Assembly (NCBI GenBank): GCA_945885475.1
Contig: CAMCYR010000017.1
Span: 1-58,265 of the forward strand
Source of the DNA: Chitinophaga pinensis
GTDB lineage: Bacteria > Bacteroidota > Bacteroidia > 2-12-FULL-35-15
DNA length: 58,265 bases
Direction of reading: 5' to 3'
The notes under the pieces are model-generated. The model searched no databases, was not told the origin of the DNA, and saw nothing but the letters and a program-made list of their open reading frames with translations. This document shows positions 514 to 52,730 of the stretch, piece by piece. How positions within the stretch are numbered: position 1 is the stretch's first letter; the number at the start of each line of letters is the position of its first letter. A program made the translations under genes and the position numbers.

Positions 514-554
514 AAGTCAAATATAGGATTCCCTCTTTACTCAATAAAATTTAT

Positions 555-4539: not shown

Positions 4540-5057
4540 ATTAAACGAAAGAAAACTCTAATCACAACAAAAGTAGTCAAGAAATAACCTGTTTGTGTTC
4601 AGCAACATTTTCATTGATGAGATACCATTTTTTATTAAAAACCAATTTAATGTGACTACTCTATTATTTTGAATATATTTGTATATGCATATACTTCACT
4701 TCTTAACAATTGCAATAACACTTAAAGTTTGTGAATTCTTAGTTCTTAAATTTACTAAAGCCCCTATATTACTAGTTGTTTACCCTACAAAAAATGAGGA
4801 AAAAAGAGATGCCAATCTCAGCTTACAAATAAATTCAATAACTGATCGAAATTATCAATGCTTTTACTTTCAATCCAATTATAATTTACCTGAAGTATTC
4901 TGGTTAACATATTATATCAATCACTTTAATGCCATACCAAAATTTAATTCAGCTAGTGAAAAACCAATTTTTAAGTATTACACGAATTAAATTTAACAAT
5001 TCCTTCACTAGATTACCAGCTTATCATACTAATAAACAAACATCCTTAAATATAGTT
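4540..5057. other. Right flank of IS21, no confident gene
   Basis: This 518-base stretch holds one weak plus-strand open frame (4685-4990, listed separately). On the minus strand at 4577-4660 there is a stop-terminated run of about 27 codons without a start, ending in KWYLINENVAEHKQVIS; it could be the C-terminal scrap of a lost gene. I found no continuation of the TPR-like gene that the IS cut. Confidence 0.4.
4685..4990 (+). CDS. Doubtful small protein
   Basis: An open frame of about 101 codons with a hydrophobic N-terminus (residues 3-20) and no known motif. The case for it is a TATATTTG box (4674-4681) ending three bases before the ATG at 4685, which fits a Bacteroidota -7 element, and codirectional placement before the 5058 gene. 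Against it are the AT-rich composition, lack of similarity to anything I know, and no convincing -33 element. Treat it as a candidate only. Confidence 0.25.
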   Translation: MHILHFLTIAITLKVCEFLVLKFTKAPILLVVYPTKNEEKRDANLSLQINSITDRNYQCFYFQSNYNLPEVFWLTYYINHFNAIPKFNSASEKPIFKYYTN

Positions 5058-41470: not shown

Positions 41471-42337
41471 TTATGACGATCCCAAAAATATTTCGTCTTC
41501 AATTTTATTAATTATTCCCAAATCCTGAGCTTTATCAAATAGCAGCCGAACTGCTCGCTTGCCTTCAACTCCAAGATCAACCGAATAAGTATTCACGTAC
41601 AAACCGATGTGTTTATACATTACCTCTTCACTCATCTCCTGAGCATTTTCCTTTACAAAGCTAAGACTAGATTCAGGGTTTGCAAATGCATATTCTACAC
41701 TTTTTCGCAATATCCTGTCGAATTTCAATTTCAACGCTTCAGAAAAATTACGTTTGATCACAATCCCACCCAATGGAATTGGAGCATTCGAAAGAGCTTC
41801 CCAATATTCGCCAAGGTCAATAATTTTCTTTAAGCCTTTTTGCTCATAGGTAAACCGGTTTTCATGAATAATTAGCCCTGCATCTACTTTTCCAGATAAG
41901 ACCGCCTCCTCAATTTCAGAAAACACGATCTCTTCTTTATTTGCGGCCTCTGGAAAGGCAAGCGATAATAGAAAATTCGCTGTTGTATATTTTCCCGGAA
42001 TGGCAATATTCAATGAATTGATATTTTCGGGTAAATGACTCTTCAAAGAAATAAGCAGCGGACCGCAGGCATTTCCTAGCGCGCTCCCGGCATTCAGGAG
42101 TTGATATTTTTTTGTAAGGTGGGCATAAGCATGGTAGCTAAGTTTGGTAACGTCCAATTCGGCAACAAACGCCATACGGTTCAATGTTTCTACGTCTTCC
42201 ATAAACACGTTAAAGACCAAACCTTCCGTATCAATTTTTCCGTGCAACATCGCATCAAAAATAAAACAATCGTTCGGGCAAGGACTGAAACCCAAGGAAA
42301 TGACCTCCTGCTGCTTATTGATTTTTGACTGACTCAT
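41471..42337 (-). CDS. mqnD: 1,4-dihydroxy-6-naphthoate synthase
   Basis: Converts cyclic dehypoxanthinylfutalosine to 1,4-dihydroxy-6-naphthoate in the futalosine menaquinone pathway. The 288-residue protein has a periplasmic-binding-like fold with the signature SLGFSPCPNDCFIFDAML (Cys where Thr is more usual), then VTKLSYHAYAHL, NACGPLLIS and AGLIIHENRFTYE. It follows mqnB on the same strand (47 bp apart), which supports the pathway call. The mqnA, mqnC and mqnE genes are not in the window. Confidence 0.94.
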   Translation of the reverse strand: MSQSKINKQQEVISLGFSPCPNDCFIFDAMLHGKIDTEGLVFNVFMEDVETLNRMAFVAELDVTKLSYHAYAHLTKKYQLLNAGSALGNACGPLLISLKSHLPENINSLNIAIPGKYTTANFLLSLAFPEAANKEEIVFSEIEEAVLSGKVDAGLIIHENRFTYEQKGLKKIIDLGEYWEALSNAPIPLGGIVIKRNFSEALKLKFDRILRKSVEYAFANPESSLSFVKENAQEMSEEVMYKHIGLYVNTYSVDLGVEGKRAVRLLFDKAQDLGIINKIEDEIFLGSS

Positions 42338-42384: not shown

Positions 42385-43041
42385 TTATAGCTGCTCGATA
42401 ATTTCGAATACCTGCTTATTTAAATTTACAATTGCCAAAGGAATATTCCATGCTTCACGATTTCTTTTTTCAACATAATTAGAGACTGCTCTGATTTGAA
42501 CGTAAGGAATATTCTCTTGTTCACAAACAAACATAAAAGCAGCCCCTTCCATACTTTCCGTGTATGGATGAAATTTATTGTATACTTTTTTTATGCTATC
42601 TTCATTCCCGTGAGCTGTATTTACGGTTATACCGGATACTTTGGGAAGTGCTTCAATTAATGGATGGAGCGCACCACTTAAATTTTCAATTCTCGAAACG
42701 CCGTTTAAATTTAATTCTTCCAGCGTAAGAATATCGCCATCATCTTCCGCTCCGAGTTCCGAAAAACGGTCATCATACACATTTACGACCGAACCTATTT
42801 CGATATTACGACTAAAACTACCACAAATGCCAATATTAAATGCGGCATCATAGGATTCATTCAGTACTTTACCCGTATGGTATGCCGTGGCCACCATTCC
42901 GATACCGGTAATCAAAAAATCAATTTCATGCTCTTTATAATTACAAGAAAAAATACGGCTACCGCTGGGATTAATTGCACCCAACCTTTCAATCAAGGGT
43001 TCAATCTCAAACTTTGTTGCAGCTACAATTAGTATTTTCAT
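42385..43041 (-). CDS. mqnB: Futalosine hydrolase
   Basis: Releases hypoxanthine from futalosine to give dehypoxanthine futalosine. The 218-residue protein starts at ATG 43041 (MKILIVAATKFEIEPLIERL); the GTG two codons upstream is possible. It has the MTAN-like nucleosidase fold with GIGMVATAYHTG, NIGICGSFS and MEGAAFMFVCEQENIPYVQIRAVSNYV (active-site Glu and Asp/Asn region). RNREAWNIPLAI near the end is typical of MqnB and differs from MTA/SAH nucleosidase. A TATCTTTG box (43047-43054, minus) ends five bases before the ATG. It is co-transcribed with mqnD. Confidence 0.93.
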   Translation of the reverse strand: MKILIVAATKFEIEPLIERLGAINPSGSRIFSCNYKEHEIDFLITGIGMVATAYHTGKVLNESYDAAFNIGICGSFSRNIEIGSVVNVYDDRFSELGAEDDGDILTLEELNLNGVSRIENLSGALHPLIEALPKVSGITVNTAHGNEDSIKKVYNKFHPYTESMEGAAFMFVCEQENIPYVQIRAVSNYVEKRNREAWNIPLAIVNLNKQVFEIIEQL

Positions 43042-43160
43042 GTACACAAAGATAGTTATCTTCTAAACAAAAAATACGTTCCGCTGTTTAATCTGAATGT
43101 AGATTTGTTTTATTCATATATTGTGGAGATAACTTATATTTGTATTCTATTAAAACGACT

Positions 43161-50348: not shown

Positions 50349-50537
50349 TTATTTCTTTTTATCGATTCTTCCTTTTTCCTTATTAAAACTATAAGGACAA
50401 TGCTTACAACCATTCTGACAACAATATCCGCGCTTCAACAAATACTTTTCAGTAAAAATAAGATAGCCCTGTTCGCTGTAATAAAAATCATCAGGATCCA
50501 ATTGTTTACTATTTGAAAAGCCAATATCATCTATCAT
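50349..50537 (-). CDS. DUF5522 family small Cys-rich protein
   Basis: A 62-residue protein with the conserved core YLIFTEKYLLKRGYCCQNGCKHCPYSF: CC, then CxxxC and CxHCPY, a compact metal-binding knot, followed by a basic tail. It matches the small DUF5522 proteins common in Bacteroidota, whose function is unknown. A strong promoter lies directly before the ATG, with only four bases between the -7 box and the start codon, so its mRNA may lack a leader. hutU follows 51 bp downstream on the same strand. Confidence 0.88.
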   Translation of the reverse strand: MIDDIGFSNSKQLDPDDFYYSEQGYLIFTEKYLLKRGYCCQNGCKHCPYSFNKEKGRIDKKK

Positions 50538-50541
50538 TTAA

Positions 50542-50572
50542 CAAAGATACTGCGCTAAATAGAATTGTCAAA
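50542..50572 (-). promoter_or_regulatory. Bacteroidota-type promoter with start codon at about +1
   Basis: Minus strand: -33 box TTTG (50569-50572), 19-base spacer, -7 box TATCTTTG (50542-50549), then TTAA and the ATG of the DUF5522 gene. Expected transcription starts coincide with the A of the ATG. Confidence 0.75.
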
Positions 50573-50630
50573 AGTATTTTTTCAATATCATCCATTTATT
50601 GAAAACACCTAAATGACATTCCAAAAATTA

Positions 50631-50638
50631 TATCTTTG
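50631..50638 (+). promoter_or_regulatory. Putative -7 box of the lipoprotein gene
   Basis: TATCTTTG matches TAnnTTTG and ends four bases before the ATG at 50643. No clear -33 TTTG was found at the right distance, so confidence is moderate. Confidence 0.45.
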
Positions 50639-50642
50639 TAAA

Positions 50643-50891
50643 ATGAGTCCAAGAAATGGTATTTTCTTTTCAGTTTTTATGGGCACATACTTATTGATCG
50701 CATGCTCAAAAGACCCGACTATTCCTTCTGAATCAATTAAAAAAGAGCCACAGCCTGTTTTGCCTAAAAAAGTATATTCCTATCTTTCAGATGCACTTCA
50801 AATTCATTTTAATTCACCGCCGCTAATATCCCATTCAAATGATACATCAACCGGTTCCACTTCAGAAAATCAATTCCAGATTTTTAGCTGA
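50643..50891 (+). CDS. Small lipoprotein
   Basis: The ATG at 50643 gives 82 residues with the lipoprotein signal MSPRNGIFFSVFMGTYLLIAC (lipobox LIAC). The mature part is short, Pro/Ser/Thr/Asn-rich and probably disordered. It overlaps the start of the PLP-enzyme gene by 53 bp in another frame. Such an overlap could also hint at a frameshift joining the two, but the enzyme's N-terminus looks complete from its own ATG, so I keep them separate. Confidence 0.55.
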   Translation: MSPRNGIFFSVFMGTYLLIACSKDPTIPSESIKKEPQPVLPKKVYSYLSDALQIHFNSPPLISHSNDTSTGSTSENQFQIFS

Positions 50892-51726
50892 GCATGAGAT
50901 ACATCTTTATGTTTATCGCCTTGATTTAAATCACACTTATATCAGCGGCAACAAATTATATAAACTGCATTACAATATTGAAGCAGTAAAAAAAGAAAAC
51001 AAAACAACGATACTTACATTTGGAGGTGCATTTTCCAACCACATTGCAGCAACAGCGGCAGCGGGAAAAGAGTTGAAATTAAAAACCATCGGGATCATAC
51101 GGGGTGAAGAATACCATGCATTAAATCCAACATTACGATTCGCGAAAGAGCAAGGAATGGAATTACATTATGTTTCGCGCACGCTGTATCAAAACAAGAA
51201 AGAATTAGAAGGCTATATCCATAAACAATTCGGAGCAGATACTTATTATTTGATCCCCGAAGGAGGTTCCAACAAATTAGGAATAGAAGGCTGCCGTGAA
51301 ATAACAAAAAGTATCCCAATTGATTTCGATACGATATGCTGCCCCTGCGGAACAGGAGCTACTTTGACAGGTATCGTCCTTTCGTTGCAGAAGCATCAAA
51401 AAGCTATTGGTTTTCAAATATTAAAAGCAGAAAAATATATTGAAAAGGAGGTTTCAGAATGGCTGCAACAATTTTCATCGGATCAAAAAAATTGGGATAT
51501 ACATGAGTCGTACCATTTTGGAGGATATGCAAAACTAAAAACCGAATTGGTAGATTTTATAAAACTATTTGAAAAGGAGAATGCCATACCACTGGATTAT
51601 GTTTACACCGGAAAAATGATGTTTGGAATATATGACCTCATCAAAAAGGGTGAATTTAAAAGGGGGCAGACTATAATTGCGGTTCATACAGGGGGATTAC
51701 AAGGAAATGCAGGCTTTGAGAATTAA
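50839..51726 (+). CDS. PLP-dependent D-cysteine desulfhydrase / ACC deaminase-like
   Basis: A 295-residue PLP enzyme of the fold-type II tryptophan synthase beta group. The start MIHQPVPLQKINSRFL is followed by the lysine site ISGNKLYKLHYNIE (Lys forms the Schiff base, near residue 39), the Asn/Ser block LTFGGAFSNHIAATAAAG, PEGGSNKLGIEG and CGTGATLTGIVLS. YVYTGKMMFGIYD carries the late active-site Tyr. Annotated relatives cover 1-aminocyclopropane-1-carboxylate deaminase and D-cysteine desulfhydrase; the sequence alone does not decide between them. It is followed after 68 bp by the glucosaminidase gene. Confidence 0.9.
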   Translation: MIHQPVPLQKINSRFLAEHEIHLYVYRLDLNHTYISGNKLYKLHYNIEAVKKENKTTILTFGGAFSNHIAATAAAGKELKLKTIGIIRGEEYHALNPTLRFAKEQGMELHYVSRTLYQNKKELEGYIHKQFGADTYYLIPEGGSNKLGIEGCREITKSIPIDFDTICCPCGTGATLTGIVLSLQKHQKAIGFQILKAEKYIEKEVSEWLQQFSSDQKNWDIHESYHFGGYAKLKTELVDFIKLFEKENAIPLDYVYTGKMMFGIYDLIKKGEFKRGQTIIAVHTGGLQGNAGFEN

Positions 51727-51794
51727 CAAAAAAGTGTTTGAAAGTTCATCCCTACGCAGATACATCAAGATCAATAATGTGTATATTTGAAACA

Positions 51795-52730
51795 ATGCGA
51801 ACATTATTATTCATAACAATTTTATTTTCATTTTACAATTCACCGTTGAATGCTCAACCGGCAGAGCATAAAATGACGCCATCACAATACATTGAGAATT
51901 TCAAAAACGAAGCGATCAAGGAAATGCTGATGTATAATATTCCTGCAAGCATTACACTGGCTCAAGGAATGCTGGAAAGCGGCAACGGGAATAGCGATCT
52001 TGCAGTATATGCAAACAATCATTTCGGAATCAAATGCCATAAAGAATGGAGCGGACCGACATTCATAAAAGATGACGATACAAAGGACGAATGTTTTAGA
52101 AAATATTCTTCCGTTTTGGATTCGTATACCGATCACTCTAATTTTTTAAAATCACGCAGCAGATATGCTGGATTGTTTGAATTAAAACGAACAGACTATA
52201 AAGGCTGGGCAAAAGGATTAAAACAAACGGGCTATGCAACGGATCCAAAATACGCACAGCGCTTAGTTGATCTGATCGAAACACATCAACTATACCAGTA
52301 TGATCAAGTAGATGAGTTACCAAACATCGTTGTCGCAGCAAGTACAAAAACTCCACCCGAGACAATGGAAGCGAGAGAAATTTTAAGATTCCGTTTCATC
52401 AAATATGTTGTTGTAAAACCGGGAGACTCATTTTATAAAATTGCGGTGGATACGGATAAAGATCTTTGGCAACTTTACAAATTCAATGATTTGGAGCCGA
52501 ACTCAAAGTTGATAGCGGGACAGAAATTGTATCTTCAGCCTAAACGAAACAAAGCAAAAGAGCCGTTTCACACAGTAAAAAAGGGCGAGACCATGAAATC
52601 GATCTCACAATTACACGGAATAAAACTCAAGAAACTTTACAAAAAAAACAATATGAAAGCTGGTGAAGAACCAAAAAGCGGAGATCAATTGTATATGCGG
52701 GCACAGAAGCCGGATAAAGAAGACTTCTGA
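51795..52730 (+). CDS. Glucosaminidase with LysM repeats
   Basis: I choose ATG 51795 (MRTLLFITILFSFYNSPLNA-QP), which opens a signal peptide; the longer frame lacks one. The 311-residue protein has an N-acetylglucosaminidase domain (about 28-165: SITLAQGMLESGNGNSDLAV with the catalytic Glu in LES, NNHFGIKCHKEW) and two LysM peptidoglycan-binding repeats (about 205-250 KYVVVKPGDSFYKIAVD; about 265-308 HTVKKGETMKSISQLHG). It trims peptidoglycan glycan strands in the periplasm. A TATATTTG box (51782-51789) ends five bases before the ATG. Confidence 0.92.
   Translation: MRTLLFITILFSFYNSPLNAQPAEHKMTPSQYIENFKNEAIKEMLMYNIPASITLAQGMLESGNGNSDLAVYANNHFGIKCHKEWSGPTFIKDDDTKDECFRKYSSVLDSYTDHSNFLKSRSRYAGLFELKRTDYKGWAKGLKQTGYATDPKYAQRLVDLIETHQLYQYDQVDELPNIVVAASTKTPPETMEAREILRFRFIKYVVVKPGDSFYKIAVDTDKDLWQLYKFNDLEPNSKLIAGQKLYLQPKRNKAKEPFHTVKKGETMKSISQLHGIKLKKLYKKNNMKAGEEPKSGDQLYMRAQKPDKEDF

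Follow-up and report, generated by a model that had tools for sequence, protein, structure and literature searches.

A group of TAnnTTTG boxes that end directly before ATG codons raises the question of whether promoters at this locus place the start codon at or near the transcription start (+1). The window is the entire contig C17 (58,265 nt) of a 3.06 Mb, 84-contig genome (G000) from an uncultured member of the Bacteroidota, and d denotes the number of nucleotides between the end of a TAnnTTTG box and the start codon. A sequence-only reading of the window had proposed such boxes four or five bases before the ATGs of the DUF5522 gene, the ORF at 50643, the gene at 51795, and mqnB, and all four were found again, at d = 4, 4, 5, and 5, respectively. 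The window boxes have the -7 form TAnnTTTG of the promoter of sigma ABfr, the primary sigma factor of Bacteroidota, and as in that promoter there is usually no G at the variable positions. The features concerned are the following:

518..525, minus strand: -7 box TATATTTG, 4 nt before the ATG at 513, whose ORF leaves the contig end
43047..43054, minus strand: -7 box TATCTTTG of mqnB, 5 nt before the ATG at 43041
43135..43142, plus strand: -7 box TATATTTG of the divergent gene 43161 (PTPS family), d = 18
50349..50537, minus strand: DUF5522 gene, 62 aa with a single Met, PF17653 (71.6 bits)
50542..50549, minus strand: -7 box TATCTTTG of the DUF5522 gene, 4 nt before the ATG at 50537
50569..50576, minus strand: TACTTTTG, possible alternative -7 box of the DUF5522 gene at d = 31, containing the TTTG at 50569-50572
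50631..50638, plus strand: -7 box TATCTTTG, 4 nt before the ATG at 50643
50643..50891, plus strand: 82-aa ORF with a lipoprotein-like N-terminus (judged by eye), overlapping a PALP-family gene at 50839-51726
51782..51789, plus strand: -7 box TATATTTG, 5 nt before the ATG at 51795
51795..52730, plus strand: gene with Glucosaminidase (PF01832) and LysM (PF01476) domains

The divergent PTPS-family gene 43161, which we take to be QueD, is by box position the leadered counterpart of mqnB. No Pfam match was obtained for the 82-aa ORF, which occurs in just four other genomes of the genus among the loci searched, and the ORF at 513 (minus strand) matches Peptidase_Mx weakly. Other box-ATG matches in the window include one at 4685 (plus strand, d = 3) before a 101-aa ORF that the gene caller did not call, and six at d = 3-8 that lead only to ORFs of at most 56 aa. 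A match at 42250 (minus strand) was rejected as a promoter and is probably due to chance, because it lies inside a menaquinone-biosynthesis gene (41471-42337, minus strand, PF02621) called from 42337; it is a reminder that single box-ATG matches can arise in this way.

Box distances upstream of start codons

The count of boxes against random expectation that had been suggested as a check was run on 1.235 Mb of G000, with genes predicted by a home-made caller that makes no use of upstream sequence and that replaced an earlier codon-usage caller (702 genes). It returned 938 genes (87% coding, 905 ATG starts), and the analysis covered the 695 starts preceded by 40 nt or more of intergenic sequence. 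TAHHTTTG occurred at d = 4-5 before 16 of these starts, compared with 0.86 in dinucleotide shuffles (maximum 3 in 100 shuffles), 1.6 expected from the background at d = 60-119, and 4 of 6639 internal in-frame ATGs; these 16 are among 18 TAnnTTTG boxes at that distance. Small genes tend to escape this crude caller: it overlooked the DUF5522 gene and the 50643 ORF and placed the start of the 51795 gene at 51777, so mqnB is the sole window case among the 16.

The distance profile has two modes. TAHHTTTG boxes numbered 2, 11, 5, 4, and 3 at d = 3, 4, 5, 6, and 7, fell to 1, 2, 1, 1, 1, and 0 from d = 8 to d = 13, close to background, and rose to 95 at d = 14-32. For the three ranges d = 3-7, 8-13, and 14-32 the shuffles predicted 2.3, 2.5, and 8.4 boxes, respectively. 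Relative to the far-upstream background there was a surplus of 21 boxes in the range d = 3-7 and of 99 in the range d = 8-59, which gives a leaderless share of 17%. The share was 15% in G017, of the same genus, where 7 boxes lie at d = 3-7, and 27% in the outgroup G150 (10 boxes, with d = 7-12 empty); the counts at d = 4-5 exceeded those of the shuffles in both (5 vs. 0.26 and 7 vs. 0.10, respectively). No box at d = 3-7 was found among 55 starts of G061, a sample too small to judge since it covers 125 kb, 7 of the 20 stretches requested. The genes with boxes at d = 3-7 start with ATG in 24 of 25 cases in G000, 7 of 7 in G017, and 9 of 10 in G150, the remainder being GTG.

In F. johnsoniae, many predicted transcription starts lie 4 or 5 nt past the -7 element (PMC6847099), and by this spacing the A of an ATG that follows a box at d = 4-5 would itself be +1, provided that the box sets +1 in this genome as in F. 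johnsoniae, which we infer. The peak at d = 4-5 and the spacing conserved among relatives (see below) are those of promoters that would place +1 on the start codon, and the boxes of the four window genes belong to real promoters that most likely act in this way. In the mechanism proposed here, housekeeping promoters of Bacteroidota with a TAnnTTTG -7 box would be sited so that transcription starts 0 to about 3 nt from the A of the start codon; the resulting mRNAs would be leaderless or nearly so and translated from their own 5' AUG, which the ribosome must then recognise at the very terminus. Such transcripts would form a minority, equal to the above shares of box promoters in the two genus samples and the one outgroup sample, alongside a leadered class with the box mostly 14-32 nt upstream. 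On the same spacing, the hump at d = 14-32 would correspond to leaders of about 10-27 nt and the trough to leaders of about 3-9 nt, which would be rare. The existence of housekeeping TAnnTTTG promoters that place +1 on or near the start codon, as a leaderless minority beside a leadered class, is considered quite probable.

The DUF5522 promoter had also been read as a full promoter, TTTG-N19-box. The TTTG is indeed present, at 50569-50572, but as a property of the class it is not supported: the -33 TTTG was not kept as part of the signal, being unenriched in the genus. In G000, the proportion of boxes with a TTTG 17-21 nt upstream is 4% for the leaderless type (n = 25), 12% for leadered boxes (n = 108), and 4% for intragenic boxes (n = 743), and in G017 it precedes none of seven leaderless-type boxes. 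As a class, leaderless-type promoters of the genus differ from the sigma ABfr promoter in that a -33 TTTG is undetectable. In G150 it was found at 2 of 10 leaderless-type and 0 of 21 leadered boxes and may have a role in the leaderless-type promoters of that genome. In F. johnsoniae, the -33 TTTG is described as much less evident in general and the published motif as weak (PMC6847099). Promoter-flank scoring was set aside as proof, as the three genomes disagree. In G000, the flanks of leaderless-type boxes outscore those of intragenic boxes, resemble intergenic background (medians of -0.48 and -0.61, respectively), and fall short of leadered promoters; the seven in G017 score no higher than intragenic boxes, and those in G150 are on a par with leadered promoters.

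Proximal and distal boxes

The leading alternative is that the true promoter lies further upstream, the proximal box being accessory or unused and the mRNA carrying a leader. The DUF5522 gene offers a candidate in TACTTTTG at d = 31, which is found in 6 of 30 loci of the genus, the window among them, and a scan for TAnnTTTG is blind to promoters of other types. However, the proximal DUF5522 box occurs at d = 4-8 in 29 of the 30 loci (d = 4 in 9, 5 in 6, 6 in 10, 7 in 3, and 8 in 1), the one locus without it being L050, and the close relatives L039 and L045 keep it while lacking TACTTTTG. The gene was found in 34 of 36 genus genomes, and the 30 loci analysed include that of G000; as for all genus orthologs considered here, they share ancestry and the counts across them are non-independent. 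Across genes, a second box at d = 14-60 accompanies a d = 3-7 box in only 1 of 25 cases in G000, 0 of 7 in G017, and 0 of 10 in G150, whereas among the remaining genes a box in that range is found in 132 of 670, 45 of 225, and 27 of 171, respectively. Since the proximal box is rarely accompanied by a second one, it looks like the promoter of its gene and not an accessory element, and a more distal promoter appears improbable. Taken together, the F. johnsoniae spacing, the conservation in the genus, and the rarity of a second box support, at the level of sequence, the proposal that the start codon lies at or near +1.

Beyond the genus, the DUF5522 box arrangement is mostly lacking, being present in 3 of 26 readable loci of a phylum sample, with 4 of the 30 sampled loci giving no start codon. 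A box at d = 3-8 was found in 35 of 80 named DUF5522 loci, 18 of the 35 being contigs of genus genomes already counted. In L161, L167, L170, and L171, TACTTTGC, of the TAnnTTGY type, lies 4 nt before the DUF5522 ATG, and this alternative box may also be used at the leaderless distance. A stretch near TAAAAATAnTTAnTTTTG precedes and includes the DUF5522 -7 box in L021, L022, L027, L042, L043, L044, L048, and others; the extended TAAAAATAnTTAnTTTTG-like stretch in much of the genus is possibly a clade-specific promoter extension.

Predicted leader states of orthologs in the genus

The gene at 51795 has a box at d = 4-5 in 25 of 28 genus genomes (d = 5 in 23 and d = 4 in 2), and no TAnnTTTG in the other three. 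Among these orthologs the spacing is kept even though the box differs at its variable positions. The count rests on 29 scored loci, two of which are the same gene, with the weak partial match L286 left out, and each start was assigned to whichever ATG was closest to the position given by the alignment, with a shift of up to 6 codons in some. The 50643 ORF has the box at d = 4 in all 5 loci (G000 and four relatives), which adds little because the box letters are identical in all five.

The divergent pair mqnB and QueD exhibited both predicted leader states. Among 30 genus loci of mqnB, the box lies at d = 4-7 in 12 and at d = 17-39 in 13, and five have no TAnnTTTG; two of these five carry TAAATTGC at d = 4, which fits the alternative TAnnTTGY box reported for F. 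psychrophilum (PMC9723704). The QueD box lies at d = 4 in 10 of 30 loci, at d = 16-21 in 19, and at d = 61 in one. No box was found at d = 8-15 on either side of the mqnB-QueD intergenic regions, 31 of which were aligned from the 34 genomes with both genes. On a protein tree of these 34 genomes, a quick one with weak deep branches, the leader state changes at least three times in QueD and at least five times in mqnB, with TAnnTTGY cases typed leaderless by hand and the mqnB count leaving out G014, G017, and G022. Single genes, as typed by box distance, are seen to move between the leaderless and the leadered class without a visible intermediate. The broader proposal, that in Bacteroidota blind to Shine-Dalgarno (SD) sequences selection favours mRNAs with no leader or with one no shorter than about 10 nt, with about 3-9 nt avoided, separate modes between which genes jump, and a lineage-dependent share, is one whose chances we put at about even.

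The two genes of the pair often differ in state. In the 31 regions (43042-43160 in the window; L228-L317), mqnB is leaderless and QueD leadered in 17 and the reverse holds in 7; both are leadered in 4, both leaderless in 1, and 2 have no mqnB box. Shared ancestry may be the cause of these opposite states.

The same orthologs bear on a second alternative, that start codons are misassigned, translation beginning at a downstream codon of ordinary leadered mRNAs. The starts were indeed set either by a home-made caller or by choosing the longest plausible reading, and the second in-frame ATG of the 51795 gene, at 51777, would place its box inside the gene. However, the DUF5522 protein has no second Met at which translation could begin, the mqnB and QueD orthologs, 30 of each, can all be aligned from their first residue and retain the ATG there, and the identical QueD start codon is leaderless in 10 loci and leadered in 20. 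Misassignment is considered improbable, marginally more so than a distal promoter.

Missing Shine-Dalgarno sequences and the wider phylum

It had further been suggested that leaderless mRNAs would fit the near-absence of SD sequences. The two do occur together, and a survey of 260 species proposed that Bacteroidetes use mechanisms that are leaderless and/or involve S1 (PMC5397173). The explanation nevertheless fails here: leaderless promoters make up only about 17% of box promoters and therefore cannot explain the missing SD sequences, about 83% of the box-promoter excess being leadered. GGAG occurs at positions -20 to -5 of 1.2% of starts in G000, 1.9% of far-upstream stretches, and 4.4% of internal ATGs, and AGGAGG in 0.3%, 0.1%, and 0.1%, respectively, so that starts as a whole seldom carry an SD sequence. 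The genome encodes bS21, and SD blindness has been attributed to sequestration of the anti-SD by bS21, bS18, and bS6 (PMC9976891), while the work on F. johnsoniae rejects a link between leaderless mRNAs and SD in that species (PMC6847099). The 16S rRNA, sought for its anti-SD, was not found in the assembly. That leaderless mRNAs are the cause of the missing SD sequences in this genome is hence very unlikely. Least credible of all are chance matches in AT-rich DNA: the pattern is short and some window matches, such as 42250, surely are accidental, but none of nine permuted motifs exceeded 5 occurrences in the first or the second 5-nt bin, where TAnnTTTG occurs 17 and 16 times, respectively. Together with the enrichment, the two-mode profile, and the conservation this refutes chance for the box class as a whole, whereas single cases lacking orthologs may still be accidental.

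That leaderless genes form a minority in Bacteroidota is already known. Leaders shorter than 10 nt were reported for 3.7% of mRNAs in B. thetaiotaomicron (PMC7366714), 5.5% leaderless mRNAs in F. psychrophilum (PMC9723704), and predicted leaders of at most 10 nt for 13% in F. johnsoniae (PMC6847099). The system described here resembles these mapped species in its TAnnTTTG promoters and its minority of leaderless or very short leaders, and differs in that its share, which in the three samples amounts to about 15-27% of box promoters, is deduced from sequence. It also differs in being fixed in genus orthologs, with two-state switching and an avoided zone. A survey of 953 genomes, in which TANNNT was sought, recorded TA-led genes in a single one of 37 Bacteroidetes/Chlorobi genomes (2.4%) (PMC3160421); there, too, a -10-type signal at a fixed short distance upstream of the start codon is taken to mark leaderless genes, whereas the signal here is the Bacteroidota TAnnTTTG (for further related literature, see PMC3155529). 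A two-mode box distance or leader switching in Bacteroidota was not found in a literature search that was thin on subscription papers. What is added here is a predicted conserved leaderless set, apparently avoided leader lengths, switching, and lineage differences. The results bear on how ribosomes without usable SD pairing choose a start codon, a question for which genes that alternate between a short leader and none inside a single genus serve as natural experiments, and promoters that end beside an ATG provide an independent check on start-codon annotation.

Counts across the phylum suggest that leaderless use is uneven between lineages, so shares from a few model species may fail for the phylum. 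Raw counts at d = 4-5 were set against those at d = 9-12 and those at d = 16-20 over 158 genomes, but this comparison was dropped because codon phase and GC content shift the background, and was replaced by a phase-matched control at d = 10-11, counted over all ATGs and not called genes. The family sums derive from hand-copied counts for 113 genomes out of the 158, namely the 40 of the class and those of families f16, f17, f23, and f24, with 45 left unsummed. Boxes at d = 4-5 exceeded the control in all 40 genomes of the class (5664 vs. 3648, ratio 1.55), and the reversed pattern, summed for the class only, gave a ratio of 1.03 (21 of 40 genomes). The excess was small in f16 (1.02, 7 of 13 genomes), f23 (1.13, 14 of 19), and f17 (1.14, 16 of 33). 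In f24, which belongs to another class, 337 boxes were counted vs. 72 in the control (ratio 4.7, 8 of 8 genomes), and leaderless promoters may dominate in this family, whose genomes include G136, G140, G148, G171, G179, and three more.
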